From Siphonodentalium dalli (Eukaryota > Mollusca > Scaphopoda > Gadilida > Siphonodentaliidae): a stretch of 64,000 nt of DNA. The first letter of the stretch is position 1. Every line of letters begins with the position of its first letter. Below, in pieces: positions 16,983-50,290 of the stretch. The position numbers and the translations under genes were made by a program. The stretch is taken from NCBI GenBank assembly GCA_032622095.1, contig CP136068.1, positions 161,155,465 through 161,219,464 of the forward strand. The letters are read 5' to 3'. The notes beneath the pieces were generated by a model. The model was not told where the DNA came from. It made no database searches and saw only the letters and a list, made by a program, of their open reading frames with translations.

Positions 16983-17434
16983 TGTGACCCGCCATATCAA
17001 ATCCAGTCGGGATTTTTTTACCTTGTGCCAATGTATTCTCTTATATATGCGAGTCGACCATAGGTCGCCTCGCATATATAAGAGAATGCATTGGCTTAAC
17101 AATTTTTTATCATGTTTTGTAAATAAATGTTTCTTACAATTTTTAGGACATAAAATAAAAAAACATCCATTACCTGCAGGGAGCCCCACACATATATAGA
17201 AGCACATAGAAGAGTGTCGTCTGCTCATGTTTCTATGGGGCTCTGTATGGGTGAAATCATAAAATTGTTAAAGAATACAAGAACAAATTATTAAAATTGT
17301 AAAAAATTGTTAGGCCAATGCATTCTCTTATATATGCGAGGCGACCTATAGTCGACTCGCATATATAAGAGAATGCATTGGCACAGGGTAAAAACAATCC
17401 CGACTTACGACTGGATTTGATATGGCGGGTCTCA
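16983..17434. mobile_element. MITE-like element carrying the twin-hairpin module
   Basis: Outer inverted ends are TGTGACCCGCCATATCAAAT and (right, complement) TGAGACCCGCCATATCAAAT, continuing with CCAGTCGGGA/CCAGTCGTAA. Inside sit two 67-nt hairpins (17028-17094 and 17315-17381) in opposite orientation. Each is CCAATGCATTCTCTTATATA-type sequence folding back with one mismatch around an ATA loop. Between them is an AT-rich spacer with AAAATTGTTAAAGAAT words. There is no coding capacity. The same module lies in the TTAA elements at 37.1 and 49.7 kb, which have different outer ends. Confidence 0.8.
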
Positions 17435-17956
17435 TATTGCTAACGTTACACCACATTCGTCGATGACGCCAATAGAGAATAGTGTTCCTGGTGCTCCTGA
17501 TTTGTCCGATTATTAACGCATATCACGTAGCAGTGGTGCACCGACAACTGACTGTCATGAAATGAACTGTCTACCAATGTGTTGAGAGTGCACTTTCGAT
17601 ATTTCTATGTGGTTTCATGTATTCGGGGAGAACATTTGTATGTGGTTGTACATGGAAGAGACATGGTGTTAACTACCCATTTGCATGTGATTTAGTGTTG
17701 CCGCATGCATAAGGTCGAATTGTAGCAGAAAATATTTCACATGCATATGGGCGATTTCCTGACTGGTCTATATTGGTACAGTGTGGTCGCAATCGTGTGG
17801 TCTGTTAATTTGTCAGTGTGATGTGTATCATGATGGTGTCCAGATTATTCAATGACTATCCCTTTGCGTGTGAGATATTAATTTGTATGCATATTGAGTT
17901 GATGTTCATATATTTGTTGTCACTATTTGACTAATTCATGGATTTATTTCTTTCTC
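17435..17956. other. Intron, no gene seen
   Basis: No reading frame or element end was recognised. The stretch ends at a good acceptor-like tract, TTTATTTCTTTCTCAG (17943-17958). Confidence 0.45.
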
Positions 17957-17972
17957 AGGTTAAAGCATTAAA

Positions 17973-18203
17973 TTGTTTAACAACCTTGGCGTCCATTATC
18001 TGTCGCACGAAACACTGTCTCTGGACAATAATATAGCCTGTTTCAACATAAATCTACAAGATAAACATAGTGCCATGCAAACCTGTAATTCCCTCGTGTG
18101 TCACGAGGAATGCCTTTACATAGAAATTTCCATAAATGTCCTGTGTAGGAACTGTTACAACAGAATTCATTATGTTGCCGGTTGTGTGATGGTTCAGGAA
18201 TGA
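17973..18203 (+). other. Cysteine-rich open frame, possible relic exon
   Basis: The frame reads NNIACFNINLQDKHSAMQTC, then NSLVCHEECLYIEI, VLCRNCYN and YVAGC, followed by a stop. The C-x4-C-x3-C spacing and the position before a lectin domain recall PAN/apple modules, which often precede C-type lectin domains in molluscs. However, the frame is closed by a TAA at 17961 between it and the acceptor tract at 17958, so it cannot be spliced in as it stands. Perhaps a decayed exon, perhaps chance. Confidence 0.25.
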
Positions 18204-19080
18204 TGTATTGTTATTATTTGGCATAGAAATATGATTAAATCGGGACAATATCACGCACGATTATAGATAATTATCTTGATCGCACTGAACTTTCTTCAAT
18301 GAACAGAGGCTCTATCAATGACGGTTTACCGAAAGCTGAATTTTATATGACAATTAACTCAGAGTAGTTGTCAACATGGACTCACTGAAACACACACATT
18401 GTGTGTTACAGTTCTATACCAATCCAATTACGGCTGCTATGGTTCTATACATGCAATTAATTCGAACGATTCATAGATGCTGCATTAATAAAAAAAATTA
18501 CGGATTATTGCAGATAATTCCCCGACCTGTGGGGTGGTATTATGGGCTATTTAAGTACAACAATATATTGTACCTTCTTGCCCATGTTATTCCGAGCCTG
18601 TATATATGTCAAAATTCTGACAGCTAGGACTATGTTCAACCATTAACTTGAGAAATGGATGTTCTTTTGTAAATACTGGCTGAACAATTGTAGAGGGTGT
18701 CACTCTTTTATAATTTCAAAGAAACGATTTACGTGTCACTTAAGCTCTCCCTCAAAGTATCCGAGCATTTCAGCCTACCAGTATTTTCTTTATGAAGTTT
18801 CCCGTGCCTGTTATTCAAGACAAGAGAATATATCGATTTGTTAAAATTTAAGCTCATAATCAAAAACAAAATCTTAGCCTGACTCTGCGTCGATTATACT
18901 GATGAACATTCACCCGAATCTCTAGAAATGACATAAAAATCGGATGTATATGAGTTATTATAATTCAATTTGTATTCCACCAATGACGCTTCTGGTTGTC
19001 ATGCTTTAACACAATGGCGGGTATCACCAGACTTGATTCATTTCGGTATCCGTTAAAGGCCTAAAACTTCATGGCAGCCG
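18204..19080. other. Intron, no gene seen
   Basis: AT-rich sequence with short frames only. Confidence 0.45.
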
Positions 19081-19087
19081 TCAGTTG

Positions 19088-19184
19088 ACAATCGGTTATA
19101 AATACTCACTTGTCTCGCCTGTTAACGATGAACCACCCGGTTATAACTACTCGCTTGTCTCGCCTGTTAACGATGAACCACTCG
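19088..19184. repeat. Two-copy tandem repeat, about 49 bp
   Basis: CGGTTATAAATACTCACTTG and CGGTTATAACTACTCGCTTG each continue TCTCGCCTGTTAACGATGAA and CCAC. Two adjacent copies with few changes. Confidence 0.85.
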
Positions 19185-19456
19185 CGTGATTAATGATATC
19201 AATGATTAGTGTGACCATGTCAAATAGATGTAATTTACAGACATACATTACATACAATTGTCTTTCCACCCTTTCTTCGGATAATACATATTGCCAAGTG
19301 GTTATTGTTGAATAATTTATACATGCCTCAACCATTTGATTACAATACAAATGCTTGTCAATGTATTAATTACAAATGTAATACACATACTTATTTCCAG
19401 TTTTGTGTATTTGGTTACAAATACAATACGTTTCAAAAAGTAATCAAATGTGTAAT

Positions 19457-19684
19457 AGATAGTATTACTAGTAACCAGTGTTTTGATAAGTTGCTCGGTG
19501 ATATATTATCTATAGATAGTATTACTAGTAACCAGTGTTTTGATAGGTTGCTCAGTGATATATTATATATAGATAGTGTTACTAGTAACCAGTGTTTTGA
19601 TAGGTTGCTCAGTGATATATTATATATAGATAGTACTACTAGTAACCAGTGTTTTGATAGGTTGCTCAGTTATATATTATCTTT
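19457..19684 (+). repeat. 57-bp tandem repeat, four copies
   Basis: The unit AGATAGT(A/G)TTACTAGTAACC, AGTGTTTTGATAGGTTGCTC, AGTGATATATTATATAT recurs at 19457, 19514, 19571 and 19628. As 57 is a multiple of three, the + strand stays open (19305-19700) and would give a 19-residue repeat such as TSNQCFDRLLSDILYID. Differences between units change amino acids freely (Ile/Val/Thr before Thr-Ser), which argues against selection on a protein. Intronic minisatellite. Confidence 0.9.
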
Positions 19685-20321
19685 AGATATAAACATCTAA
19701 CAAACCAGTTATTGGTGGAAACATTTGTGAATATTTTCTGTGGGTGGAATTTTCATCAACGATGTAACATATATCAAGTTTGTATCAATTGGCCCCATTC
19801 AAGTATTTAATATAGTAAGACAAATATTTTCGCTCAACTTTTTACAAAAACAATCTAAAATACTTTGATCAGATCTAATCAGAAGTAACACACAATTAAT
19901 TCAAAATACATTCCCAAAGTATTTTATTACAAATACAAATAATTTGACTCATAGAATTCTTTATTACAAATACGATACACAAAATACATCAAATTTTGTA
20001 ATCATTACAAGCACAAAACAAATACATAATACGATTATCCCATCCCTTAATAACTAGGTCAACGAAACTACGCTTTTACATTTAAGAAGGCGCTCCATTC
20101 GTTAATTTTCAAAAACATCTCAATTTCAAATAATTAATTTGAAGAGAAACATCATTATTCTTTATAACCAATATATGCTACTGTATTATAACAACACGTG
20201 TTTACCCTCACAATATGAGAGATGTGTTCGAATTATGAAAAAGTGATTTTACAAATTAAAAACAACCATTTCTTCATGTAGGTCAATATACCGTTTGACA
20301 GGAAATATTTTCAAAAACACT
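19685..20321. other. Intron, AT-rich, no gene seen
   Basis: Contains repeated ATTACAAATAC(A/G)ATAC words (19370-20030), possibly an old degenerate repeat. Confidence 0.45.
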
Positions 20322-20408
20322 CTGCACTATTTATTCTTATTTATACTCAGTCTACCATCTGAAATTGCACTATTTATTCTTATTTATACTCAGTCTACCA
20401 TCTGAAAT
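20322..20408. repeat. Two-copy tandem repeat, about 43 bp
   Basis: GCACTATTTATTCTTATTTA followed by TACTCAGTCTACCATCTGAAAT occurs twice in a row, without visible differences. Confidence 0.9.
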
Positions 20409-20561
20409 AATGACTCTGTTAAATTTTAGTCATTTGGCAATTATTTGCATGACTATTTGTTTACGTGTAAAGGAACAAAACAACCACGTTTCCAATAAAT
20501 TATGTAGTTTTATGGTAATTTTTTCATAAAAAAATTACAGTTCGTCTTCATGTTCTTGCAG

Positions 20562-20732
20562 TTTGTCCTACTGACTACAAGTCATACCAAATGTACTGCA
20601 TTGGAATCATTAATGGCGCATATAGTCGGATCGATGCAGTTGCACAGTGCGCAGCTTCCGGAGGACACTTGGTGCAGATACATGACGAGGCGATATACAG
20701 CTACATCCTATCCAGACTCACAGTTTATGAAG
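20562..20732 (+). CDS. C-type lectin-like domain, N-terminal exon
   Basis: A 171-nt exon, acceptor TTCATGTTCTTGCAG, donor G|GTACAT, phase 1-1. Codons read CPTDYKSYQMYCIG, then AYSRIDAVAQCAASGGHLVQ and IHDEAIYSYILSRL. This is the classic first half of a C-type lectin-like fold: a leading Cys pair (CP...YC), then an amphipathic helix with A-x-x-C-x-A-x-GGHLV. It joins in phase to the exon at 29527 through an 8.8-kb intron, giving ...TVYE then EYWIDG. Ligand binding cannot be predicted from this half. Confidence 0.88.
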
Positions 20733-20823
20733 GTACATTTCGTGAGCCAATTATGTGACACTGAACTGGAACATATATTGTCCGTAATAGAATCGTGTTG
20801 TTTTGAGACAGTGCGATTTTTTT

Positions 20824-20892
20824 GGATTGGTGGGATTTGAACCCCGGCCCATGACGGCGAGCGCGCCTTTCGACTCAAAGTCCGACGTCAAC
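20824..20892 (-). tRNA. tRNA-like remnant (pseudogene or SINE head)
   Basis: On the - strand the T-arm/B-box GGGGTTCAAATCCCACCA is preceded by a possible variable-arm hairpin GGCG-CGCT-CGCC and an anticodon-like loop in GGACTTTGAGTC, which suggests a Ser/Leu-type (long variable arm) tRNA. The acceptor stem and the A box are not convincing and the T-stem pairs only partly. It lies just beyond the 3' end of the - strand LINE. It may be a tRNA pseudogene, a SINE fragment, or the LINE target. Confidence 0.35.
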
Positions 20893-20909
20893 TTACACGC
20901 TTCTAAAAA

Positions 20910-23900
20910 TATATATATTTTTTTTAAATATTTTATTAAGATCCTGATAAGAATATCTCATAAATAGGCGTACACATATTAATATATATATTATGATGGT
21001 TGATTAATCTATTGAACATAAAGTATAGATTGTATGTTTGATATATTATTGCTTTTGTACCAAACATTTTTCAATTATAGTAAACAAATAAATGTTTAGT
21101 TTATTGATATATTATTGCCGTGGGGTGGAGGGGGCATTCCATCTCAGTGGAGAGTACATGTGAATTACATTTATCTTCATCCCTACAATTGGTATGCAAA
21201 AACATTAGTTGAATTTGGAATTGATGGTAATGTAAACAAAAAACATTTCCAGTTTTCTGTTGACTTATTGATATGTTAACAATGGTTTCAAGTCTTCCCA
21301 TCTTGTTTTAAGATGATGAGCCCTACTGACTTCCAAGTGACTTGTACTGAGACATTCAATGTTTTGGTAGTATTTAAGATGTTCAATGAGGCCAGTTAAA
21401 GTAGGATTGTTTTTCCTCATTTTACATAAATATATATTTTTTCTATAAAGTAATATACAAATATCCAATATTTCAAATATGGCTTCTTCTGTGTCTCCCA
21501 TTCCAAGCACAGTATATTCTGGGGTGAGATCTATTGGAAATGCACATTTTTCTTTGAGTAGCTGTTGAAATTAAAGCAATACAGTTTTTGAAATGGAACA
21601 TTCATAGAAGAGATGTAGAACTGTTTCTCTTGAGTTTCCACAGAAGGTGCAACGTTCTGTTTCTGATAGTTTGCACTTGAATAGTTTCGAAATTGAATAC
21701 AGTATATAATGATTGATCTTAAATTGGAAATTAAGTAACCCTGTATCATCTGTAATTTGGTATGGAGGTTTATAGATTTCACTCCAATTCAAGCCACTAA
21801 TGGGTTTTCCTAATCTTTTTGCCCATTTGTTTTGAATATGGGTTGGTTGTTCAACAATATTTTCCAGAGGTATGGGATAAAATGTTTTACAGGTTGTTGT
21901 CAAGTTTTCCAACTTATCTATTTTTTATTTTTTTTATCAGAATAAGTTTCCTATTTCCCCTCACACATGTTCTCGATTGAGATGGTATTGCATTCAAAAG
22001 TCCCTGGTAATATGTAAAAGGAGTGCGTAAATTATATTTACAACAAAATTCACCATAGTCCAGGAATCCTGAGTCGTCTTTCATAAGATCATTTATAACG
22101 AATATATTATTCTTTATCCACTCTTTATTAATGAACATATGCCTGTCCACTATGATATGTTTACTTAAATGAATCGGTTGGGATAGGATATCTTCCGGGG
22201 CTGTGCTGAGATTTTGGTCCACTAGACTCCAAGCATATAAAACACTTTTCCAAAAAAAGTTCACCTTATTCCCCAGAACATTTAAGGCTTCAGTGTGAAG
22301 ATGCCAAATTTTATTGCCACCAAATGGCTCCAAATCATCCATGATAATAATTTTCCAGCTTGCCAGGTTGGATGGATCAAGAAATATTTTCACCCAGGAT
22401 ATTTTCAAAGCATTGGAGAAAGACTCTAGATGGTGAAACTTCAAACCACCATCCTCAATTCGATTGATAATAACTTTGCGTTTTATTTTATCATTTTTTC
22501 CCGACCACAGAAAGCGAAAGAAAGCTTGCTGTATTTTTTATGTGGTATCACTGGAGGGGGGAGGTAATACTGATAGACAATGTCTTAGCATAGGAAGTGC
22601 TAGGGTCTTTATTACAGTTGTTTTTCCAATGAGAGATAACTGCCTAAATGACCAGTCATTTAGAAGATTTTCAATTTTTTGCAATTTTGTCCGGTAGTTG
22701 TTTTCAATATAGTTTTCATTGAACAGATTAAATTCTATACCAAGAATAGTTACAGCGTTTGAATGGTTCCATATAACAGGTTCTTCTGTTCGTATTTTTT
22801 CAGCACAGCCCCGTTTCGATCCAATCCATAATACTTGTGTTTTTTTCAAAATTAGCATTTAGACCTGATATTTGTGAGAATTGTATTAAACGCTTCGTTC
22901 AAGGATTGTGAGTCATCCACAAGGAACAGGGTCATATCATCTGCATATTGTGATATTACGAATTCTGATCCATTGATTTTTATACCTTTTATGTCTGGGT
23001 TTTGTTTAATTGATGCGTTAAGAGTCTCCACCGCCAGGGTGAACAGATACGGTGATAAAGGTGCTCCCTGTCTCACACCTCTGTGTATATCTAATTTTTC
23101 AGATAAATTCCCATTGTTAATATTATAACTAAAACTGTCTGTGTAGAATGTTTTAACCCAACTAATAATATCTGGTCCGAATTTAAAGAATTTCAAACAT
23201 TTTTCCTAATTGGGAGTCTGAGATCAGCTTAGGCCGGAATGTTTTCATTCTGTTAGCAATTACAGATGATGCAATCTTCGCGTCAACATTCAGGAGAGTG
23301 ATAGGTCTCCAATGTTTTATATATTCTCTTGGTGTATTGGGTTTTGGTAAGCAAAATATTATTCCACATCTCTGGGTTACTGAGAGTGTTTGAATTTTAA
23401 ATCCATGATTTAATGAATTTATCACAAAGTGTCCAACATCTTTCCAGAAAAATTTGTAGAATGGCACTGTGAATCCATCTGACCCTGGAGATTTATCATT
23501 TTTCATTTTTGAGAATGCAGTTGAACATTAAATTTCCTTGAATATGCCATCTAGAGACTGACTTTCATTGTCATCTAAAAATTCAGGAAAGGGTTGCTTT
23601 CATCACAAAAAGTAAATTCTTCATTTTCCGCTGTTATGGGAGAGAGTTTTGATTCATATAGATCTTTATAGAAGGCATGCTGTTATTTCATTATTTCCGA
23701 CAAATTGCTTGTTTCAGACCCATCGCTTTTTATTAATCTCGGTATGCTTTTCTCAGTGTAGCTTCTTTTTGCCAAATTGCAAAAGTATTTAGTTGATTTC
23801 TCCCCTTCTACTTTCCATTTTGCCTCTGTTCTTAGTATGATTCCTTGTATTTTGTTGTCCCTTAATCTAACTAACTCTGATTTAACTTTTTCAATTTCTT

Positions 23901-24896
23901 CTGTGGTCGATTCGTTTCTACTTTCCAGTTCTTCCGTAAGCTTCAAAAGTTTAAGCTCTAAGTTTTTTTCTAAGTTATCTCTTTCTTTTTTCAATATTGA
24001 AGAGTAGGCTATAGTCTGTCCGCGAATCATGATTTTTAAAGTTTCTCAAAATAGTTGATCGTTAATTGTAAAACAGTTCTCTTCGCCAAAAACTGTGTTT
24101 GTATTATTGCTATTACATGTATATTGGTTGACCATGTCTGCAATTGTTGTTTTAACTGACTCGACATACTTCGTGTCTCTGAATAAACTATTATTGAATT
24201 TCCATGTACCCCTGCCTCTAAGATGACTCACAAATTGTAGACTCAGGCTAACTGGACTATGGTCAGATGTATAGCTCAACAGTATTTCCGAGTTTTTAAT
24301 AAATGGCTGAAGATCAGGTGAGGCCAGGAAATAATCTAGACGAGCCATTTTATTTCCTGGACCTCTCCAGCTATATCTTTGAGAATCAGGGTTATGAAGT
24401 CCCCACACATCACGTAAATCTAACCTGTTTTGTCAGAATTTAATTTTTTCATTTGATTTAAGCTTATTCCTCTGTTTGTATCGAACAGTATAAATTGAGT
24501 AATCTTGGGGTACATTCCAGTCACCAGCAATAATTATAGATGTATTTTCCAAACCATCAATCTGTTCGACGAAATATTCAAAGAAGCTTGGTTTATCATC
24601 ATTTGGGCCATATACAGCACAAAGACTTAATCTCTGATTCTGAATAGATAAATGAAGAATAATGAAATGACCTCCTGCATCCACTATTGTTTTATGTATC
24701 TTGTACTGGATAGTATTTCTAAACAGGATCGCAACACCTCTTTTAGCACTTGATAGTGCTTCATAACCCCATTCCATACGCCACCGTTTTTCAGTCTCTT
24801 TACTTGAATGTGTATCTATGAGCATTGTGATATACGTTTTATTTGATCTGAAGCCAACCCAAGACAATTCAATGCACCTATGGATATATTAGCCAT
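20910..24896 (-). pseudogene. Tx1/L1-type LINE, near full length second ORF, broken
   Basis: Read on the - strand, fragments in several frames follow the order of a Tx1/L1 ORF2. Start MANISIGALNCLGL (24896). Endonuclease: LCAVYGPNDDKPSFF, GDWNVPQDYS, YTSDHSPVSLSL (24867-24046). Linker: RGQTIAYSSILKKERDN (24030). Reverse transcriptase: DKSPGSDGFTVPFYKFFW, WRPITLLNVDAKIASSV, GVRQGAPLSPYLFTLAVE, ISQYADDMTLF (23506-22852), then LGIEFNLF and RQLSLIGKTTVIKTLA. C-terminal knuckle: CTFCGNSRETVLHLFYEC (21640). Frame breaks and stops separate these, so it cannot make the enzyme. The YADD active site is intact. The 3' end is A-rich (AATAAAATATTTAAAAAAA, complement, about 20910-20938). It lies in the lectin intron, antisense to the host gene. 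Confidence 0.9.
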
Positions 24897-25145
24897 TATC
24901 ATAATAGAAGGGGAATTTGGTTCTTTGCACAATCACAATAATATACATACATAAGATGAATTCAAATACAACACAAAAATACATGGATGCACAAGTAAAG
25001 ATGAGAAATACAAACAGGGTCCACATTTTAATGTTAACAAATTTTTTAACAACGAACCCCCAGCGGCTAGCTAACAACATGAGAAATGGTCTGATTTTGG
25101 TCATATTGTTGCATGTTCCCACATATCTCATGTTTATGCTTCTAA
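24897..25145 (-). other. Possible 5' part of the LINE
   Basis: A - strand open frame (25131-24889) runs into the LINE start, but it reads as hydrophobic sequence without an ORF1 domain. It may be a 5' UTR or unrelated intron. No separate ORF1 was found. Confidence 0.3.
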
Positions 25146-25307
25146 AAATAGGTGCATTGTGTGTTGTATAGTACCATGCATGTTAAAACATGTGCCTTGT
25201 GTGTTGTATAGTACCATGCATGTTAAAATAGTTGCATTGTGTGTTGTATAGTACCATGCATGTTCAAATAGGTGCCATGTGTGTTGTATAGTACCATGCA
25301 TGTTCAA
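25146..25307. repeat. 40-bp tandem repeat, four copies
   Basis: GTGCATTGTGTGTTGTATAG followed by TACCATGCATGTTAAAATAG recurs four times at about 40-bp spacing, starting at 25152, with a few substitutions. Confidence 0.92.
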
Positions 25308-25396
25308 AGAGCAACGCTCGGCATGTTTCGAAGACGTATATATAACACGACACTGTGTCATACCTACTATAATCTATTATAGTTATAGTCTTATTA

Positions 25397-25912: not shown

Positions 25913-25916
25913 CTAG

Positions 25917-27710
25917 ATGCCAAGTCATGTCAGTATAATGGGTTCAGCGGTCAGTCTTGTTACTGCGGGTTTAGTGGTCAGTCCTGTAATTATAATTGGT
26001 TCCGCGGTCAGTCATGTCATTATAATGTATTCAGCGGTCAGTCATGTCAGTATAATGTATTCAGCGGTCAGTCATGTCAGTATAATGGGTTCCGCGGTCA
26101 GTCATGTCAGTATAATTGGTTTCGCTGTCAGTCATGTCATTATACTGGGTTCCGCGGCCAGTCCTGTCATTGTAATGGGTTCCGCGGTCAGTCATGTCAG
26201 TATAATGGGTTCCGCGGTCAGTCATGTCAGTATAATTGGTTCCGCGGTCAGTCATGTCAGTATAATTGGTTCCGCGGTCAGTCATGTCAGTATAATTGGT
26301 TCCGCGGTCAGTCATGTCAGTATAATTGGTTCCGCGGTCAGTCATGTCAGTATAATTGGTTCCGCGGTCAGTCCTGCCATTATAATGGGTTTAGTGGTCA
26401 GGCCTGCCATTATAATGTATTCAGCGGTCAGTCATGTCATTATAATGTATTCAGCGGTCAGTCATGTCATTATAATGTATTCAGCGGTCAGTCATGTCAG
26501 TATAATGTATTCAGCGGTCAGTCATGTCAGTATAATGGGTTCCGCGGTCAGTCATGTCAGTATAATTGGTTCCGCGGTCAGTCATGTCAGTATAATTGGT
26601 TCCGCGGTCAGTCCTGTCATTATAATGGGTTTAGTGGTCAGTCCTGTCATTATAATGGGTTCCGTGGTCAGTCATGTCAGTATAATTGGTTCCGCGGTCA
26701 GTCCTGTCATTATAATGGGTTTAGTGGTCAGTCCTGTAATTATAATTGGTTCCGCGGTCAGTCATGTCAGTATAATGTATTCAGCGGTCAGTCATGTCAG
26801 TATAATGGGTTCCGCGGTCAGTCATGTCAGTATAATTGGTTCCGCGGTCAGTCATGTCAGTATAATTGGTTCCGCGGTCAGTCATGTCATTATAATTGGT
26901 TCCGCGGTCAGTCCTGTCATTATAATGGGTTTAGTGGTCAGTCCTGTCATTATAATGGGTTCCGTGGTCAGTCATGTCAGTATAATTGGTTCCGCGGTCA
27001 GTCCTGTCATTATAATGGGTTTAGTGGTCAGTCCTGTAATTATAATTGGTTCCGCGGTCAGTCATGTCATTATAATGGGTTCCGCGGTCAGTCCTGTCAT
27101 TATAATGGGTTCCGCGGCCAGTCCTGTCATAATGGAATCAGCGGTCAGTCATGTCATTATAATGGGTTCCGCGGTCAGTCATGTCATTATAATAGGTTCC
27201 GCGGTCAGTCCTGTCATTATAATGGGTTCCGCGGCCAGTCATGTCATTATAATGGGTTCAGCGGTCAGTCCTGTCATAATGGGCTTCGCGGTCAGTCATG
27301 TCTTTATAGTGGGTTTCGCTGTCAGTCGTGTCATCGTAATGGGTTCCGCGGTCAGTCATGTCATTGTAATGGGTTCCGTTGCAAGTCCTGTCATGATAAT
27401 GGGTTCCGCGGCTAGACATGTCATTATAATTGGTTCCTCGGTCAGTCCTGTAGTTATAATTGATTCCGCGGTTAGTCATGTCTTTATAATGGGTTTCACT
27501 GTCAGTCATGTCATTATAATTGGTTTCGCTGTCAGTCATGTCATTATAATTGGTTTCGCTGTCAGTCATGTCATTATACTGGGTTCCGCGGTCAGTCATG
27601 TCATTATAATTGGTTTCGCTGTCAGTCATGTCATTGTAATGGGTTTCGCTGTCAGTCATGTCATTATAATTGGTTCCGCGGTCATTCGTGTCATTACGTG
27701 CGCTCGCGCA
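25917..27710. repeat. 30-bp minisatellite array, about 59 units
   Basis: The unit is GTCAGTCATGTCAGTATAAT followed by TGGTTCCGCG, with variants (CAT for CAG, GGG for TGG, TTCAGCG, TTTAGTG). About 40 units up to 27120 keep exact 30-bp spacing; later length changes of 3 bp keep the frame. As 30 is a multiple of three, long frames are open on both strands. A + strand frame of 624 codons gives (VSHVSIIGSA)n. Another + frame gives (GQSCQYNWFR)n, open to a TAG at 27412. The - strand gives (MTDRGTNYTD)n. Blocks of several units are themselves duplicated (about 26560-26760 and 26830-27060). It lies in the lectin intron and most likely is not translated. Confidence 0.95.
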
Positions 27711-28692: not shown

Positions 28693-28699
28693 GTGCATT

Positions 28700-30797: not shown

Positions 30798-30976
30798 CCA
30801 TGATCAGACAATATATTGCTGTCGTTTGGCAAACACCAGTGCAGCCATCATTAATATAAGGTTGAATATGTATGTTGTTGAGTGTTTCATACAGGGGCAT
30901 ACTTTTTCTCTATCCGCTCAGATTAGTAAAAGGCCACGAACTTTTAAAACATTGACAGTACTTTTTCTATATACAG

Positions 30977-36779: not shown

Positions 36780-39239
36780 AAACTCGAGTTGAAGAAGGCG
36801 GGTGGGATATTGCGCTGGACACATATATACAACTGGTGAAGAATGACATTATCTCGAATGTGAAAAGGAGTTCTGTCCAAAATCTGACGCTCGAAAAGCG
36901 TAAAGGCATGAAGTACTTAATAAAAAATCCCCAGATAATAATTCGACGGGCAGATAAAGGCTCAGGTGTCGTAATACTTAATAAAAATGATTACCTCGAG
37001 GGACTACGTGGATAGGTTTCGAAGAACAACTCATATAAACCCACCACTAAAAACGCGTGGATAAAGCAACACGAATGTTCGGTCAACTTTAACCCTTTAC
37101 CCAACAGAACGGCCCTGTGCCAATGCATTCTCGTATATATGCGAGTCGACCATAGGTCGCCTCGCATATATAAGAGAATGCATTGGCTTAACACATATTA
37201 AAAATGATAAAATTGTCAAAGAATGTAGAAAAATATTATAAAAATTGTTAAAAAATGTAAGAAAAAATTATAAAATTGTTAAAGAATGTAAGAACAAATG
37301 GTAAAAAGTGTTATTTTTTTTTTAGGCCAATGTATTCTCTTATATGTGCGAGGCGACCTATGGTCGAATCGCATATATAAGAGAATGCATTGGTACAGGG
37401 AATAACTGTAACCATCACAATGTGCTCGATGAACCGGTTCCAATGATATCCATATTTGTATGGTGTTATTGAGACAGACCGAAGATATTTTAGGCTGTTG
37501 AAGCTTTATTTGGGCGTTTTTGGCCGTTTTGTTGGGTAAAGGGTTAATTAAAATGAAAAATTCAGGAGTAATCTTCAGCACTCTACACAGATATATGAAG
37601 CCTAGAAATTCGACAGAAAGGAAACTTAAAGGATATGCAAAGCTTCATAAAGAAAATATGAGTTTATTTTTCGTTTTAGACGTGTTACGTGGATGGTGTT
37701 ACGGATTTACATTGTGCCTGTTGAGAACCATTGTAAGCGGGGTAATCACGTCAACGGATAAAAAATGGCAGATGTGACTGAGAGTGAATTACATAAGTTC
37801 GTTGAGGATTCTCCGAGCTTCGTAAGAGGTACAACTGATTTTTTAAATAATCTGGAATGCATTAAAGGACGGATTCCACAAAATTCTTTTATGTTTTCTT
37901 TAGATGTGTACAAACTGTTTACGTCGATTCCGAGGAATGAGGGCGTGTAGGGAAGGACTTGGCCAAAGGAGCGACAAATATATACCAACATACCAAGTTA
38001 TTAAAATGAGGTTATTTTTGGACAACAATGTGATTAGCGTAGGAGAAGAGTATTTTATCCAACATGAAGGTGTAGCGAGCGCGACCGAGCTGTGTATGAA
38101 CTATGCTTGCTCGTGTGTGCGGAAATGGGACGAGAAATTGATGATGTTTAAGGAACCTACTGCATTTTACCAGCGCTACATTGGTGACGGTTTTGGAATC
38201 TGGAGTTGGGTCTATAGAAAGTTTAATGGAATTTTATGACTATGCGAACAGCATACATTCAAACATAAAGGTAGAATTGAGATACGACAGGAAAATGATT
38301 GAGTTCTTGGACGTGTATGTAAAATCAACCGATACAGGCATTTACACTGACTTATCCCACAAAAACCCACCGACAAACAAATGTACCTCAATAGCAAGTC
38401 AGACCACCCGAGACATACCAAGAAGTCGATGGTATATGGATTAGGAGTACGAATTCGGAGGATTTGCGAGAAAAAAGGACTATGTACGACAGAGAGGCAA
38501 ACGTAAGAAGCAACTCTGGCTACAAGCATACAGCTCCAAATTTGTTGAGACGCAACTGACACGGGTGGTAGATTGTATAGGGATGTACCGCTACACGGGA
38601 CAAAGCGCGAATGACAAGAGTTCCTCTGGTCGCCACGTTCTCGAATAACCTCCCGGACCTTAGGTCGATTACACAAAAAACACATAAACGTGCTTCATGA
38701 CTCGGAACGGACGATAAAAGTGTTCTCGGAGCCTCCACTTATTGCGTTTAGGAGAGACTCAAATATATGTGATATATTGGGTCACGCAAAGACAAAACGT
38801 TTGGTCCGCTCGACACCAGGTCCTGTTCCCCTGTGCGATAAAAACTGCAAGTATGTATTTCAATTTCATTTGAACAAGTAACGAACTCCGTGAAAACAAG
38901 TGGTATACTGTTAGACATAATGTGAATTGTAAAGCTCAAAATGTGATATATTGCTTGTCATGTAGGAAATGCGAAACAGGTATATATATTGGTGAAACAG
39001 AACGCACGTTTGGGGAGCGGATGAGAGAACATATGCGGGATATTGACAATTTTGAGAAGACGGTTTTTTCTTATTTGAATTCAAATGGACATGGTGCCCG
39101 TGACCTAATGTTCTCCGTTCTGGACATGGTACATGGTGGACTTCAGTTGCGCCTAGTTAAGGCAGAGGCCTATATCATCAGGCGCTTGTACACACGGATA
39201 CCTAATGGACTAAATTATCGGCATAGGTACTTAGTGTGA
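36780..39239 (+). pseudogene. Penelope-like element: reverse transcriptase and GIY-YIG nuclease, broken
   Basis: In order, frames carry: WDIALDTYIQLVKNDI (36803) and ADKGSGVVILNKNDYL (36957) from the N-terminal RT region; a 451-bp MITE (37093-37543); GYAKLHKEN; FMFSLDVYKLFTSIP (RT motif A, 37889); GVASATELCMNYA; YQRYIGDGFGIW (38170); MIEFLDVYVKSTDTG and PTDKQMYLNSKSDHPRHTKK; LIAFRRDSNICDILGHAKT (38740). Last comes NVIYCLSCRKCETGIYIGET with ERTFGERMREH (38940-39030), the GIY-YIG nuclease of Penelope-like elements, up to EAYIIRRLYTRIPNGLN and a stop at 39239. Several frameshifts and stops, the MITE, and loss of the first catalytic Asp (YIGD where YxDD is expected) make it inactive. Confidence 0.9.
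37093..37543. mobile_element. TTAA-type MITE (piggyBac-like) with twin-hairpin module
   Basis: Ends CCCTTTACCCAACA and TGTTGGGTAAAGGG, flanked by TTAA on both sides (37089-37092 and 37544-37547). TTAA duplication with CCC/GGG termini is the hallmark of piggyBac-type elements. Hairpins of 67 nt at 37120-37186 and 37327-37393 face each other across an AT-rich spacer. An asymmetric block of about 125 bp (37400-37525) lies on the right. It is inserted in the Penelope-like reverse transcriptase. The copy at 49669-50061 is in the opposite orientation. Confidence 0.93.
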
Positions 39240-39240
39240 G

Positions 39241-39590: not shown

Positions 39591-39594
39591 TTTC

Positions 39595-41892: not shown

Positions 41893-42475
41893 ATTATTAT
41901 CCATCCCTTAACTAACACCATTTCCGATTTGGCAAAAGCCGCCACGTGATAGTCCTGGAAAAAGTAATATTGGACTCCCGAAAGTCATATTGGACTCCCA
42001 AGTGTGCAATATCACTTTTGTATCGGGACTCTGTGACGTCACGAATTAACTATTGCGAAACGAATCGGTGAAATTGTGATGCGCGCGCAACGCTGGTGGG
42101 TTTAGCAGACATTTCACTTCGGCATTGAGTGTTTTTCATTTCCGTTTTACTGTTTAATGCATTCTGATGATCAAATACAGGCTTTGAAAGAGAATTGAGT
42201 GCCGATAAATATAAAAAATAACCACTAAAGTTTTATTCCCAAAATTTGAAAAAACATAAAGATGGATAAAAATAAAGTTATTATACAGTGTTGTGTACAA
42301 TTATGAGTTTTTCTTGTACTCGTCCAGTTTGTGGTGAAAAGATTGGACTCGACACCTGGACTCGTCAAAAAAACTCATGCTGTACACAACATTGTATAAC
42401 TTTTTATTATCCATCCCTTAACTAACACCATTTCCGATTGGGCAAAAGCCGCCACGTGACAGTCCTGGAAAAAGT
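41893..42475. repeat. 73-bp direct repeats bracketing a foldback element
   Basis: Two copies of ATTATCCATCCCTTAACTAA, CACCATTTCCGATT(T/G)GGCA, AAAGCCGCCACGTGA(T/C)AGT, CCTGGAAAAAGT (41893-41965 and 42403-42475) lie exactly 510 bp apart with about three differences. Between them is a foldback (42276-42403) with CGTCCAGTTTGTGGTGAAAA, related to the element at 44561-44726. The second copy abuts the recombinase frame. Confidence 0.85.
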
Positions 42476-43024
42476 CTCAGATACCCACACGACGGATCGT
42501 CAGTTTGGTTTAAGGCTCAAGTCCATTCTCTTGGGAATATCATGAAGAAGATGGCAGAGCAGGGTGGAATTCCAGGTCAGAAAACTAACCACAGCGGAAG
42601 AAAAACTACTGTTAAACGACTACGGGAGGCTGATTTTGACAATGTGGATATAATACAGTTGACAGGACACAAAAATGCTCAGAGTTTGAACGAGTACAGT
42701 ACAGTAACTATCAAAAAACAAAAAAACATGTCAGAAACCGTAACCCATCCAACAAATGTTGCTAGTACTAGTAGTGCTGAAAGTGGACAGGACAATTCCA
42801 ATGCTCTGTTTGATGAAGGGATAAATTTCAGTGTTGTTATTCGTGACATTGAGGAATTTGAACGCAATGTGCCTAAACCTGTTGAAAGTGAGAAGGAAAA
42901 TTGTATGCCAACCAAGACAAGTATATGTAATACATGTAGTCCACAGAATCAGCAATATCCCGTATTTTCTGGATCTACTGTAAATGGTGGTGTGTTTAAC
43001 ATAAACATTCAGATTCAAAAGTAG
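42474..43024 (+). CDS. Crypton/DUF3504-type tyrosine recombinase, C-terminal fragment
   Basis: From the end of the 73-bp repeat the frame reads SLRYPHDGSSVWFKAQV, HSLGNIMKKMAEQGGI, KTNHSGRKTTVKRL, IIQLTGHKNAQSLNEYSTV and ends QYPVFSGSTVNGGVFNI-, stop at 43024. NHSGRK (HxxR), GHK (second His) and the Y of EYS are the C-terminal catalytic residues of tyrosine recombinases. The WFKAQV...KKMAE...NHSGRKT...TGHK series is that of metazoan Crypton elements and their domesticated relatives (DUF3504). The N-terminal half and first catalytic Arg are missing, so it is a truncated element or a last exon. No stop interrupts about 180 codons. Confidence 0.75.
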
Positions 43025-43025
43025 T

Positions 43026-43155
43026 AAAATGCTGTGATATAGGGACTGTGATATAGAGACTGTGATATAGAGACTGTGATACATAGACTGTGGTACAGGT
43101 ACCATGATATACACTTAGAGACTTTGATATAGAAACTGTGATACGAGTATAGAGT
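43026..43155. repeat. 16-bp tandem repeat
   Basis: About eight imperfect copies of GACTGTGATATAGAGA, directly after the recombinase stop. Confidence 0.85.
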
Positions 43156-44520
43156 CTGTGTTGTTATTACTACAGTAGTATACAGATCTGTGTTCTGTGA
43201 TATATGATCAAGTGTTCAATTTCAATTGTATGAGTGTGTTAATCATGTTTATTAAAGAATTCAATATCAGACTGCTTTTTGAAACAATAAACTACTGCTG
43301 AGAAGACATGGTGAAGGGGTCCTGAATGATGGGAAAGGGGGTCCACTTCAGGAATTCCGACTTCACCCCCTTGGGTCCAAATTTTTTAACTGGTTTCACC
43401 AACATTTCCAACCGGAGTAAAATTTGATTTGCATCTCTATTTTCAACTTGATCTCCACAAAAAGGGTAATATGGTTTGTACTCCTACCCTATACATACCC
43501 ACCTCCCCGTTGGGGTTTTGCAACTGAGTTGAAAAGTGGAGCTCCAAAAAAGTTTCTAGATTCCCATTAAAAACCTAAAATTGGGCTAAATTGCAGTGGG
43601 AAATGTCATAATTTTACTGATGTTCCCACTACAAAAATGAGGGGGGTCCGTGGGGAGTTTACATCATGTACATCCTCAGTCTGGGTGAACGTCGACTCTA
43701 TATTTGAAATATAGAGTCTGGAGCTTATGTGGCCAAAACCATTTCTATTCAGCGAAGAGCTTCCCCAAAATGACGTCACGGATTAAAAAAAATACACATC
43801 GATGATTGACAGGTGTCCCCACGTGTTATTTGTTGTGCTTCGCAATAGCAATGGCCTGTGTCGCCACATAAACTTACAGCAGATAATATTTGTCGTGTGT
43901 GCGACTATTCTTTTTCGGGAGATGAACTCGCTGCATCAACCGGAAAGCTGCATCCGAGAGCAAAAAATAAGGTCGTCATCAAAAATGATGCTTTAGAACT
44001 ATTTAAAAGCATAAAATTAAGTCATTTCCTCGGTGTTAACTTTCAGATGACTTTTTTACGACAAATAATTTGATTTGCAAACCATGGTACAATAAAGTAA
44101 ATCAAATACACGGACATGAGTGAGTTCTATTTATATTTATGGGAGGCCAAGTTGGTACCATGCGCAGGCCTATCTATCAGGTCTAGCACATCCTTCAAAT
44201 TAATCCGAATATATAATTTCGAAGCCATTGTTGTCTCTGTTGTATTTGCAAGCATCGCTTTCGATCGGAGAAATTCCGCTCTGTTACTATATTTAGAGGT
44301 GACATTATGGGAGTCTCCGCCCTCTAACACTTGTTTATTAACCCATACGGTTTCATTGGACGGAAAATAATTTACGCAATCAATCAGATTACGGAATCCC
44401 GAGGACTTGGAAATGAGATAGCGATGTTATCCGTCAGACCTTATATTCAATGTTGTAATGAATATTTAGGTATGAGTTTACTCAGACTGGTACATCCTCT
44501 AATTATACAATAATTTTATT
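43156..44520. other. No certain gene
   Basis: May contain the 3' region of the Crypton-like sequence: ATTAAAG near 43252 and CAATAAAC near 43286 are possible poly-A signals. Short frames (43858-44073, 44116-44370) show no domain. Confidence 0.4.
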
Positions 44521-44560
44521 CCAAAAATTTGGGTAAACATACAGATGGATAATAAAAATG

Positions 44561-44726
44561 TTATTATACAATGTTGTGTACAATATGAGTTTTTTCTTGC
44601 ACTCGTCCAGGTTGTGGTGAAAAGTCATATTGGACTCGACACTGCGTGTCTCGTCCAATATGACTTTTCACCACAACCTGGACTCGTACAAGAAAAACTC
44701 ATATTGTACACAACATTGTATAATAA
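44561..44726. repeat. Foldback element (80-bp arms)
   Basis: TTATTATACAATGTTGTGTA at the left pairs with TACACAACATTGTATAATAA at the right, and GTCCAGGTTGTGGTGAAAAG and CATATTGGACTCG with their complements, meeting at a centre near 44643. The left flank ATTCC(C)AAAATTTG and CATA(C/A)AGATGGATAA is shared with the foldback at 42276-42403, so both are one family. Confidence 0.88.
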
Positions 44727-45411
44727 CTTTATAATATTATATGACATCGATATGCATACTTATAATAGGCGTGCATGTGTATTGCAATCGAATTTAATTT
44801 GATATGTGCATAAATGCATACATATAAATAAATATATAGCTTATATCTTTGGAAAACGGTATTTCTATTGTTATATCGATCCTACTAACAGCATCATCTT
44901 TTGTATAAATAGTTCAAGTGTCAACTCTTACAAAAGGCAGCAAAGCCGGCAACCGTGAAATCTGAGCAACATAAGCATATTCCAGCGACTATGACAGTAT
45001 TCACATTACCAGGAACCTACGTCACCAACCAAACATCTGACCCAAATCGGCACTGATTTCAAATTTGTTAAAATCATATATACGCGTTTGTCTGAAGCCC
45101 TAACTTAGTACATGCCCTGTGGACAATGCAAATTCAAAAGCACGCAATTATTAAAACTGATATGTAACTGCAATTTACAATAACAATAGGTATCGGTTAT
45201 ATCTAGTATGTATATCTTTGAAAAAACAATTATTATCAAAATATCATAAATGAGAACGCTCTTTGGTAACTGTACGATATGTCAAATATTTCAACAAGTA
45301 TAAAAAATAAGTTATATTCAAAACAAAAACAATTCTTATCTATCATATCGTAATTGATAACGCTCTTTAATATATACCGATCTGTAAAATGATATTATTT
45401 TCCTTTTGCAG
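44727..45411. other. No gene seen
   Basis: AT-rich, ends at the acceptor TTTTCCTTTTGCAG. Confidence 0.45.
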
Positions 45412-45647
45412 ATTTGCGGACAGACGAAACACATTCTGACATCATTGCAAAGGTTCCGACGTTCTATTCCGTTAAAGCATCACTGTACAGATCCCGAGCA
45501 AAACTCCACCCAAAACTACCACGACCTCAGCAGAGAAAATACAGGAGCATCAACAACAGTCTTCGTCACTACAAGAGAGTTTATAGAGAAGGGCAGTTGG
45601 GAATGTTAGAATATTTAGATTCAGTCGGATATTTATCTGGCTATTGA
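45412..45647 (+). CDS. Possible terminal exon resembling FLYWCH/MULE-type proteins
   Basis: After TTCCTTTTGCAG a phase-1 frame reads LRTDETHSDIIAKV, then FYSVKASLYRSRAKLHPKLP and RPQQRKY, ending TGA at 45645-45647; AATAAA follows at 45711. LRTD..HSD followed by SLYR.R....P.LP resembles the end of a FLYWCH zinc finger and the linker before a MULE transposase domain in invertebrate proteins of that type. The similarity fades after RPQQRKY and no transposase core follows. It may be a relic of a transposon or the last exon of a domesticated gene. Judged by eye only. Confidence 0.35.
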
Positions 45648-45711
45648 AGACCTGATGTAATGATTATTATGTTATTGTAATTGTCGTATAAATGTATTAT
45701 GTTATATTATA

Positions 45712-46369
45712 ATAAACCGTTAAGTGCAACTGTTGTTCAAATGAAATACCGGTAAATCAGCCCAAATGAAAAAACTGTAAAAACAGTTAAAAACCTAAGT
45801 AACTGCCGATACAGAATATAAGCGGCAACTCTTTCATGTTGAGGATTATCACACCTACCTCCGAAACAATACCTGCCGATAAGTGAGAACATCTCATCGG
45901 TTGTGCCTTGATTGTGAACATCAAACACACCTCAACCATGTAACAGATATGTGGAAATGCACATTTCTGTATCCATGCAATATCTGATTTATCTATTCAC
46001 TGCACGTCACCCACAGAGCCTGCCAGCCGAACGTCAACTTGACAAATTAATTCAGGCTCACACCAGATTCATCAGATATTATAAATATCGTATGAGTTAT
46101 TTAAAAGTCGAGTTATTTAAAAGTCGGTCAGTGTGGACCGGCCTTATTTCAATTAAATTATTTATATTCGTTGATTACATTTCATGTAGGTTTTATATCT
46201 TGGCTGTTCTCAAAGCAGCATTTTTTATATCTTGGCTGTTCTCAAAGCAGCATTGCTGTTCCTTTTTGTTATTCTGTTTATATGTGTTAGAACAACGGCC
46301 AGTTTCTTAACGATTCTGACCCCAATCGAGCACTCCCGCACTAATTTTGGGGTTTTTTATTTGTATATA
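45712..46369. other. No gene recognised
   Basis: Short frames only (for example 45951-46310). A direct duplication of TTTTATATCTTGGCTGTTCT with CAAAGCAGCAT lies at 46190-46251. Confidence 0.4.
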
Positions 46370-46507
46370 TATTGTTACGTCTTAGTCTAATTCACTGTCA
46401 TTTCTAATCACAGTTGCTTCAATCGATTTTGATAATCTGTTTCTTCTTGCCGTGATATGTCTTTGTTGCTAAAACGACGTTAAACCCCAATCAATCAATC
46501 AATCAAT
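46370..46507 (+). mobile_element. 3' tail of a LINE or SINE with (AATC)n end
   Basis: The stretch TTGTTGCTAAAACGACGTTA, AACCCC, then five AATC repeats looks like the conserved 3' tail of non-LTR elements and SINEs I know from molluscan genomes. The 5' limit is uncertain and no coding part was recognised. Confidence 0.55.
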
Positions 46508-48395
46508 TCATCCACTGCATGCTTTTCCGATAGCAGCTACCCGAACGTCTCCAACAACGGTTTACACAATACGTTTTGGGACGTACATGTATGATCCTAA
46601 CCCTGAGTTATATTAGTTCAAATTAAAGTCTGCATAGAATATATAATTGATTGATATTTCTATTGTCCTTGCTTATTTTAGAGAGTGTACACTGTGATAT
46701 GTTGTTGATTTTCGTCGATGCGCATTCAATGAACGGAGAGACCCATCTGGGCTGCGAAAATATTCAGTGTGACTTGGTATGAAGAAAGACAACTTGCTCA
46801 AATCATGTGTTACTTAAACAACTCGGAACCCGTTTTACCGACTTAATATGCAGCAAAACAACATAATATAAATCGCGTATTACTTCACCAACTCGTAACC
46901 CGTTTACACGGACTTCAGATGCAGCAAGACAACTTACTCAAATCGTGTATTATACTTCAGTGGGTACAATACCCTGAATCCGGTCAGTTATGGCATCATC
47001 TTTTATACTCAACACAACACTGAATCAATTTGAGCCATGGATTAGTGTCAAATACATTATTGTGCGCTATGAACGATGCAAACAACATTGTAATTATAAT
47101 GAAAATGTATTAATGACTGGAATCTGTTTCATATTATAGTAAGTATAATCGTGGTGTTCTATGGATCATTATCGTTTGTCTCTAATCCGAAAACAGATAT
47201 GACTTCGGGGGAGGGGCGTGACAAAATTTGCAGACACAGGGTAGTAAGAAAATATTTCCGCTATCTGACCACCCACCGCCAACCTCTGTGCATTTAAAAA
47301 AAAAAATTCCAGGTAAACTTTTTGGGACCCACCCCTAAAATTAGTAAATAAATCAGAATAAAATGAAAACAAATTATGTCAACCTGGTTCTTTCTGGAAA
47401 TGACTATTTAACATATTCCAACATATTAATACAACCCATATTAGCATTGGAGTGGTAGTAGTATGATTGTAAGCAAATTCATAAAAATCAGATCCCATAG
47501 ATATCTACTTCCAATCTTGTTGCCAACATTGAAATACTTCTAAGTGAATATATAAAGATATAATATTAGACATGTAACAGTTACCTCATTTATAATGGTG
47601 AATTATTGTGCACATACCGTGTTAAAGTTTGTTGGCAAATGCACTCCATGTGGCAACCCGAAGGACTGGGCAGTATGTCAGTGAGTGTTTATGTATGATG
47701 TACCTACAGTACCATCCTATACAAAATTTCCGACATCGAATAACCCACCCACCCATCCCTGTGCTTGGTCCTTTTCTGTAGATCCCCCCAATGACCTCGG
47801 AAAATCTGTTTCATATTATATTAAGTCTAACAGCTAGCAAGACCAGCGACATCGGAATCTGATAAACATAAGCAAAATATGGCAACCAGAATAAGAGTAT
47901 CATTGTATTAGTCCAAATAAACGTCTCCGTATAACATTTCAATTGATTGACATTTCTAGTGTACGTGTTGTTCTGATAAAATTTGTGAAGTGACACGTTG
48001 TAGACACACTTGGGTGATATCGGTTTCTCGCAGAACACAAGCTTCACCAGCAACAATTTACTCGAGAGACTGTTGAAATGTACAATGTGATAGTATAAGT
48101 GAAATGACGTTTAATTATTAAACACAAATCAATGGTATATATTTGCATCAATCTCCGGTTTGTCCCTCTTTGTGTGAAACATCCAATAACCCCATATAAG
48201 AAACTCATCGTCCCAATAGGAACGCCCACATAGGTTATTGGTCTAACACGTGGAATCACCTTAGGACGTTTTCCTCTTAGCCACTCCTCACCCAAATCAG
48301 TTGGGTAAGTTATTCGTATCACAGCACGAAGTATATTCCACACGTATTGTGAAGTATACAATTTGTGAGTGTTTTGATTCATGTGACACAGCCAA
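46508..48395. other. No gene seen; upstream region of the PAN gene
   Basis: CAACTCG(G/T)AACCCGTTTACA-type words repeat at 46810-46920. A C-rich block (47200-47345) resembles blocks at 47735-47800, 50870-50985 and 51620-51690 (GGGACCCACCCCC..AAAA-type), a dispersed unknown repeat. No promoter element can be named. Confidence 0.4.
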
Positions 48396-48762
48396 AATGG
48401 AAGACTTCCTTATTTGTGATCCCTGTGATACGAAACAGATAAAGGAACGGAGGTTTCCCAAAGTGAGGGAAAATAAAGGACTTAAATTGTGTTGGTTCTG
48501 GGATCAGTTGAAATTCGGATTGTTGTGTGGATTGCTGTTCAATGTTGTCGGTGTTTGTGCCCATCCTTTCGAATCCCAAGCGGATGGTTTTCTGACTGAA
48601 ACAAAGCTTTCAAATGTCAAGAGATGTGAGACAATGTGCACGAGACATGCGGACTGTACCAAGATCGGATACAATGTTAAAACAAAGATGTGCGTTCTCC
48701 TGCAGCCAGTGGACTCTGGAGGTGCACAACCGTCAAATGAGTGGTTCATGCTAGACACAAAG
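48396..48762 (+). CDS. First coding exon of a PAN/apple-like membrane or secreted protein
   Basis: ATG in good context (CAAAATGG) opens a frame with MEDFLICDPCDTKQIKERR, a basic stretch, then a hydrophobic segment LKFGLLCGLLFNVVGVCA (residues about 40-57) that could be a signal-anchor or late signal peptide. After it comes FLTETKLSNVKRCETMCTRH, ADCTKIGYNVKTKMCVLL: the C-x3-C-x5-C...C spacing of PAN/apple modules. The exon ends ACAAAG|GTAAGA, a perfect donor, 122 codons in. An upstream in-frame start (48301) exists, but its context is weaker. Later exons were not found in the window. The function is unknown; PAN modules bind protein or carbohydrate outside the cell. Confidence 0.65.
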
Positions 48763-48807
48763 GTAAGACTGTAGTGTTGTTGTAAACTAAAATCGTAAGA
48801 TGCATCT

Positions 48808-48918
48808 AATGGTGTGAGAGTTGGTTGCTAATGGTGTGAGACTTGGTTGCTAATGGTGTGAGACTTGGTTGCTAATGGTGTGAGACTTGGTTGCTAATGG
48901 TGTGAGAGTTGGTTGCCG
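48808..48918. repeat. 22-bp tandem repeat, five copies
   Basis: CTAATGGTGTGAGACTTGGT followed by TG recurs five times just inside the first intron of the PAN gene. Confidence 0.95.
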
Positions 48919-49114
48919 ATGTGCTTGAATGGGCACCGCTTTATGGGTGACATTTCAAATAAAAAACATCGCAGCTGATTCAAACCCCCATAATTCGAAC
49001 ATAAATGCCTAGTGACGCGTTTTTCATAAATGGAAGCAAATGAAAAACATTTTCAATATAAATTGCTCTGGATTTCATCCAGCGAATGCTCAAAGATCAA
49101 CGGCTTCATTACAA

Positions 49115-50290
49115 TACTGGCGTTATATATCCTCAATATACGCTCTATATGGACCTAAAATACGAATTTTAGAACAGTCCAAATCGGGAATATTTTCACA
49201 CGAAATAATCCCATATTGGCAGAATTTAATCTACCCTTTTGCTCCGATAGGACTTTCCACATATACGTTCTTTATAATAGTTTTCACTGCTGCCCGCACC
49301 ATTCGACAGAATAATGGGTATATTGTCACTGTGGCCTTATTTGAGAATCAAATAACTCCAAAATGAACCTTGTGTGATTATATAGGTCCAATATGAACCA
49401 GTATATACGAGGATATCACACAATATGAGCAGGGTTGAGGCTGCCGATTGTCAATTTAGCAAATTGTTAAACAAAAGTGAATTTGCAACAATAGAAATCC
49501 GATTTGCAACAAAGACTGCAACACATCATCGCTTAAATATCGCAGATAATCGACCTTTACTGCGAAATATGTGCATAATGTGATTATATGATTCTGAAAG
49601 AAGCCGATAATGGACACATGTCCGTCATTCCGTTTTATGGTGCGGGCCACACTGAAAACACATGTTAACCCTTTACCCAACAAACCGGCCAAAACCGGCC
49701 AAATAAAGCTTCAACAGCCTAAAATATCTTCGGTCTATCTCAATAGAACCATACAAATATGGATATCATTGGAACCGGCTCCTTGACCACATTGTGATAG
49801 TTACAGTTATACCCTGTGCCAATGCATTCTCTTATATGTGCGAGTCGACCATAGGTCGCCTCGCATATATAAGAGAATGCATTGGCCTAAAAAAAATCTT
49901 TTTTTTAACACTTTTTACCATTTTTTCTTACATTCTTTAACAAATTTATAATTTTTAATGTGTTTAGCCAATGCATTCTCTTATATATGCGAGGCGACCT
50001 ATGGTCGACTCGCATATATAAGAGAATGCATTGGCACAGGGCCGTTCTGTTGGGTAAAGGGTTAAAGAACGTAGTACATCTGCTTAGTCGTGATTTGGCT
50101 TATTTGTGTCATTGTCCGCACATAACGAATCTATAATTGGTGTACTGTGAGTCGATAATGTGACTAAAACGCTCTCATGCTTAGTTCATTATCGACTCAA
50201 AATGAGGCGATTCTACACAGTTCAACGACATAAAACAAATTTTATAATAAGCAGATAATGTGCGGGTTTACGGAAAACAGCCTGAACACT
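49115..50290. repeat. Dispersed inverted family, copy 1 (holds the TTAA MITE)
   Basis: GTTTTCACTGCTGCCCGCAC with CATTCGACAGAATAATGG (49282 onward) reappears inverted at 49605-49660 as CCGTTTTATGGTGCGGGCCA. ATATCCTCAATATACGCTCT (49128) is shared with 54561. The right part (TGGCTTATTTGTGTCATTGT, AGATAATGTGCGGGTTT) is shared with 52.9-53.05 kb. Family name and class unknown; non-coding. Confidence 0.75.
49669..50061. mobile_element. TTAA-type MITE (piggyBac-like) with twin-hairpin module, second copy
   Basis: CCCTTTACCCAACA...TGTTGGGTAAAGGG with TTAA at 49665-49668 and 50062-50065. Hairpins at 49819-49885 and 49968-50034. Opposite orientation to the copy at 37093-37543: the asymmetric block with GAAGCTTTATT-type sequence is now on the left. 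The spacer between hairpins is shorter (82 bp compared with 140). No transposase. Confidence 0.93.

Follow-up and report, generated by a model that had tools for sequence, protein, structure and literature searches.

A twin-hairpin core shared by MITE families with different outer ends in the genome of Siphonodentalium dalli

The window analysed here, a stretch of 64,000 nucleotides from the scaphopod Siphonodentalium dalli (contig CP136068.1), contains six hairpins of 67 nt, which had been pointed out in a first-pass annotation made from the sequence alone. All six were confirmed at the positions given there and found to fold (predicted folds of -46.7 to -50.9 kcal/mol), and they form three inverted pairs. 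In the usual form, an outer stem of 26 pairs is followed by one T.C mismatch (G.A in the inverted copy), 5 further pairs and a 3-nt loop. Three hairpins depart from this form: that at 17315 has a 5-nt loop, that at 37120 one extra mismatch, and that at 37327 a wider internal loop near the tip. In each pair, the second hairpin nearly matches the first one's reverse complement and is not merely another palindrome, and this, together with the T.C mismatch, gives each hairpin a direction. The inverted arms of the three pairs are 102, 79 and 75 nt long, with complementarities of 93, 92 and 99%.

The pairs at 37 and 49 kb had been assigned to TTAA elements and that at 17 kb to elements with different ends, a distinction that corresponds to the two types designated P and M below. 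The 17-kb pair is enclosed by GTGACCCGCC...GGCGGGTCTC ends in an M-type element on the forward strand (16984-17433), recognized by inverted arms at 16980-17009 and 17408-17437 and flanked by ATAT at 16980-16983 and 17434-17437. Its core, ACCTTGTG ... CACAGGGT, spans 17020-17389 (forward strand), as judged from the sequence and the inverted arms, and holds the left hairpin at 17028-17094 (forward, -48.9 kcal/mol) and its inverted copy on the right at 17315-17381 (reverse, -48.3 kcal/mol). The other two pairs lie in one element type with TTAA CCCTTTACCCAACA ends, present in opposite orientations; both elements carry TTAA at both ends and were delimited by inverted arms and locus comparison, and their cores by inverted arms. 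The 37-kb element (37089-37547, forward) has its core at 37113-37400 (forward), with the left hairpin at 37120-37186 (forward, -46.7 kcal/mol), an AT-rich spacer with units of about 31 bp at 37200-37313 (forward; period 31-32, 3.4-3.6 copies) and the inverted right hairpin at 37327-37393 (reverse, -47.8 kcal/mol). In the 49-kb element (49665-50065, reverse), the core lies at 49812-50041 (reverse) and the hairpins at 49819-49885 (forward) and, as the inverted copy, at 49968-50034 (reverse), both with a fold of -50.9 kcal/mol. The three elements are 401, 450 and 459 bp in length and have inverted ends, as is characteristic of MITEs, and no coding frames of 150 aa or more, the size considered, are present inside them.

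Several other features were noted in the window. The 37-kb P element is embedded in sequence (36900-37088) with a frame that reads IIIRRADKGSGVVILNKNDYL and resembles a Penelope-type reverse transcriptase. There is a long tandem array of 34 copies of a 62-bp unit at 9352-11501, and an array of 59 copies of a 30-bp unit at 25923-27696, the latter inside a 624-aa open frame. A frame at 42542-43024 is weakly similar to phage-type integrases (PF00589, 17.5 bits against a cut-off of 27.1).

The hairpin was then counted in the whole genome of 2.23 Gb. The exact 27-base hairpin tip occurs 118,241 times (59,250 + 58,991), whereas the reversed control gave 0 matches, which excludes chance. The figure counts hairpins, about two per intact cassette, and diverged copies are missed by exact matching. 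Among neighbouring hairpins separated by fewer than 420 nt in the loci fetched, L090-L109 excepted, the inverted, mismatch-polarised layout was observed in 84 of 86 pairs; of the two exceptions, one had the opposite orientation and the other the same orientation for both hairpins. The core begins and ends with a 7-nt foot, CCCTGTG; between the two feet lie, in this order, the 67-nt hairpin, the AT-rich spacer and the reverse-complement hairpin. The earlier description of the hairpins as always occurring in inverted pairs is correct for the window but does not extend to the genome, where one family (S, below) has a single hairpin. In one region (G000:C1:742234-915864), hairpin pairs recur every ~14.5 kb and then every ~11.2 kb, a regularity indicating that large tandem duplications carry hairpin elements.

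Forty loci were first picked by hand from those listed for the initial 6 Mb of contig 1, and several of these are tandem-array copies. By eye, 19 were of the P type, 10 of the M type and 6 of a further type, S, while 5 had no recognised outer ends, two of these being near-copies of each other. Further outer contexts, which the first-pass annotation had proposed to look for, were indeed present, and more of them than it had seen: one core occurs under at least four sets of outer ends, P, M, S and T/U.

The P family is a TTAA element with 37,166 exact junctions between the left end and the core and 40,012 exact tails. Its arms begin with TTAA CCCTTTACCCAACA and reach the core after 24 nt on one side and about 150 nt on the other. 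In one copy (L165) the long arm is present on both sides, and the short arm may therefore be the result of a deletion. Of 20 P loci, window copies included, 15 have TTAA on each side, and 3 of the 5 misses were tandem-array copies. The S family, another TTAA element (TTAACCCTTTSAGTGCCAGG), has one hairpin and part of the spacer, that is, half a core, with 13,153 exact junctions between S and the core. T/U is also a TTAA family (TTAACCCTTTCATGACGGGAGCT) and carries twin hairpins where complete; 698 exact junctions between T and the core and 276 U-type tips were counted. U has the same stem as T, another hairpin tip and a short, different spacer. The TTAA sites were counted for P and judged by eye for S and T/U.

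The M family is represented by 19,784 exact ends, two per intact copy. Its arms are symmetric, GTGACCCGCCATATCAAATCCAGTCG...GGGATTTTTTT preceding the core on both sides. The flanking 4-mers conform to AWWT in 20 of 24 cases on the left and 21 of 24 on the right, and identical 4-mers flank 14 of 24 copies. Shuffled pairings gave an average of 10.1, and 2.3% of the shuffles reached 14 (L043, L044 and same-site repeats were left out of this analysis). A 4-bp target-site duplication is thus likely for M, although not proven. The numbers of exact ends or junctions in P, M and S agree with the high copy number expected of MITEs, and the three features in the window are members of a very large MITE lineage. 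It had been considered that every copy might lie in one type of outer element, the 17-kb copy being the product of a single recombination. The M ends and S junctions counted above show otherwise, and a single recombination was rejected for the 17-kb copy, as M is a large family.

Additional structures were observed in and around M elements. At 17179-17245 of the window and at L038, L048 and L056, a further palindromic piece, GGGAGCCCCAC...GGGGCTC, was noted inside M cores, and three M copies adjoin an outside TTAACCCATAGAG... end. Two loci, L043 (G000:C1:4495800-4497900) and L044 (G000:C1:4549400-4551500), have GC-rich inverted repeats enclosed by M ends that carry half a hairpin. A 177-aa frame between the M-type ends of L044 matches the Bcl-2 family (PF00452, E 1.7e-13), a cell-death regulator gene.

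We then compared the cores of the different families. The 67-nt hairpin consensus is identical in P, M and T, and a spacer unit like CTTACATTCTTTAACAATTTT was recognized by eye in P, M, T and S, indicating that their cores are close kin. One explanation would be common descent only, with P, S, T and M representing a single old family that kept its hairpins as its outer ends diverged. The ends of P, S, T and U do share the start TTAACCCTT. However, the P and M cores are nearly identical and their arms display no likeness by eye, and gradual divergence would hardly have spared the cores. M sites, moreover, are mostly AWWT and not TTAA. We therefore consider descent without exchange of ends quite unlikely.

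The homology between families ends sharply, stopping at or next to CCCTGTG at the T left, T right, M, S and P junctions. This common boundary could also mean that the core once moved by itself, and the first-pass annotation had proposed either an independent mobile unit, inserting into other MITEs, or a structure captured by two element families. A discrete unit would account for the end of homology at or beside CCCTGTG at several different junctions, for the 5 of the first 40 loci without a recognised outer end, and for a locus (L082) in which a core with T-run ends sits within a P element. On the other hand, cores standing alone between target-site duplications of their own, for which the annotation had suggested a search, did not emerge. 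In a direct-repeat test of 25 loci, no consistent duplication was found, and only one locus, L085, had a long repeat (27 bp) abutting both junctions. A 15-bp repeat in L072 lies 48 nt from the left junction, and matches in the remaining loci were at most 11 bp, except for a 15-bp match in L061, which is an M copy. Twenty loci with a T-run left end also speak against a free unit. On the right, 8 of them have full or partial M arms, 1 a P end and 1 a T-like end. Of the others, 6 are truncated inside or past the first hairpin, 1 is contained in P, and 3 seem bare at either side. Taken together, what stands of the proposal is one structure in several families with a common boundary, while independent mobility of the core is unsupported and, in our judgement, unlikely. 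L085 itself (G000:C3:256661380-256662080) is an M copy without its left arm, in which the 27-bp direct repeat adjoins the T-run at one junction and the M end at the opposite one.

If the core had been inserted into existing elements, copies of these elements without it might be found. Insertion into the centre of ready-made palindromic mini-elements (P and M), with the palindrome tips as the target, would agree with the symmetric arms of M and of the P copy L165, and M without its core would leave a nearly perfect palindrome. The coreless centres expected are GTTACAGTTAT directly followed by ATAACTGTAAC in P, and GGGATTTTTT followed by AAAAAATCCC in M. A short-gap search for asymmetric P without a core, however, gave 4 matches, each of which keeps letters of the core; we read these as deletion derivatives. 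We also examined 20 P tails with no exact left junction listed nearby, and none was coreless, all 20 carrying hairpin sequence. No P element without a core was thus seen in the tests made, which included a comparison of the 40,012 tails with the 37,166 left junctions. M loci fetched by the M end alone (L041-L047) had hairpin sequence or its remnants wherever they were read. We regard an origin by insertion into palindromes as doubtful. The presence of hairpin sequence in all of the P tails examined indicates that P multiplied with the core in place.

A related possibility is that the core is a discrete hitch-hiker, transferred from one MITE family to another on at least a few occasions through a single-strand process guided by the hairpins and free of target-site duplication, and that it then used host transposases to multiply. 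We regard this scenario as rather improbable.

The relative age of the cores was estimated from the divergence of their hairpins. Mean differences from the common consensus per 67 nt were 3.1 for T (10 hairpins), 1.6 for S (7) and 0.75-0.88 for P and M (20-33), in an ungapped comparison allowing at most 12 differences, with samples of 7-33 hairpins that had been selected in different ways. U hairpins differed by 1 to 13 letters from their own model (12 hairpins; ungapped, so that indels inflate the figure). The T/U loci compared were chosen by an exact U tip or T junction, except for L050, L051, L063 and L066, which came from a separate search. The U tip differs from that of T in two base pairs, changed on both sides, and in the loop, with the T.C mismatch kept; T opposite C was retained in 97 of the 100 U-type tip matches listed, the pattern having allowed either letter. 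The tip change corresponds to one or two events, and lends modest support to a kept structure. These results suggest that U came first and T next, followed by P, M and S, the samples behind this order being small and chosen by differing criteria.

Strong selection acting on the hairpin of every copy was rejected. Within families, most of the stem pairs that have changed are broken (23 of 35 in T and 58 of 75 in U, the latter figure inflated by indels), so that single copies are not maintained by selection. In the P sample, pairwise differences were 1.8% and 4.1% in the hairpins, 5.2% in the spacer and 3.7% in the tail, as computed from the 13 of 20 loci in which both hairpins could be located, with one outlier retained. 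The hairpins are long, near-perfect and of pre-miRNA size, and could in principle have been kept for an RNA role, as microRNA-like or siRNA precursors, which would be compatible with the other readings. However, Rfam gave no family in the window at the gathering threshold, and a described RNA family was thereby rejected; we consider an RNA role very improbable. The exact tip had 0 matches among viral contigs and among the genomes of bacteria and archaea, in a search from which near records may be left out. A twin-hairpin layout of this kind was not found described in article titles and abstract openings, which were covered in part.

Taking these results into account, we favour as the probable explanation that a MITE lineage with an old twin-hairpin body, U and then T, gained new P, M and S ends at the same boundary and multiplied through those ends. 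The body would be oldest in the TTAA family, as U and then as T. The founders of P, M and S would each have acquired a T-like core about once, at the same boundary, and each family would then have multiplied, core included, by way of its outer ends. The finding of TTAA at both ends of most P loci agrees with multiplication of this kind. The TTAA families may have relied on piggyBac-type transposases, and M on a different enzyme. With less confidence, we suggest that new ends arose by fold-back copying, in which a core beside a new flank would fold through its inverted hairpins and copy the flank across. Symmetric arms and a sharply defined limit at the foot would be the result. No intermediate of such copying was seen. 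Against this scheme of origin, S is not symmetric, and the left and right arms of T differ beyond ~22 nt.

As for transposases, at least 128 piggyBac domain matches are present in the genome. In 20 loci holding 21 of these matches, with about 1.4 kb on each side, no P, S, T or U ends and no hairpin were found, although the ends could lie beyond the stretch. Three piggyBac transposase loci (L095, L096 and L100) show TTAACCCTTTATCTGC... ends; one end reads TTAACCCTTTATCTGCTATACGCGACATAA, of which the first ten bases are the same as in the ends of P, S and T.

MITEs are commonly presented as reduced copies of a single transposon. The elements described here are a kind of MITE with an unusual inner cassette that is reused under several ends. 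As one inner body is found under several unrelated ends and at no fewer than two kinds of target site, the inner part, and not the ends alone, may matter for success. The sharp boundaries and symmetric arms also make the birth of new MITE families testable in one genome. MITEs of the piggyBac superfamily resemble the elements described here in being short, in their TTAA target, in tips starting with CCCTTT... and in palindromic sequence near the ends. In piggyBac, both ends have identical 19-bp palindromes, to which the cysteine-rich C-terminal domains of the transposase bind (PMC11707139). By analogy, the hairpins may serve as palindromic sites for transposase binding close to the ends. According to the same paper, piggyBat can be inhibited by subterminal sites (PMC11707139), and to that extent a binding role of the hairpins need not be a helping one. 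Here, in contrast, the palindromes are 67-nt hairpins in inverted pairs and occur also in M, which is not a TTAA family, and this weakens the analogy. Foldback-type elements and MITEs such as Angel of fish have been proposed to spread through hairpin intermediates. They share with the present elements long inverted repeats able to fold, and fold-back copying has been proposed as the source of copies, whereas in the present elements the arms are palindromes in their own right and different end types have the inner part in common. IS200/IS605-like elements have hairpins near both ends, as is the case here, and no target-site duplication is expected for them; the hairpins of S. dalli, on the other hand, are mutually inverted, and belong to families with inverted terminal repeats and TTAA or AWWT flanks. 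With more than a hundred thousand exact hairpin tips, the cassette is an unusually clear example of how a single inner part can be reused beneath different outer ends.
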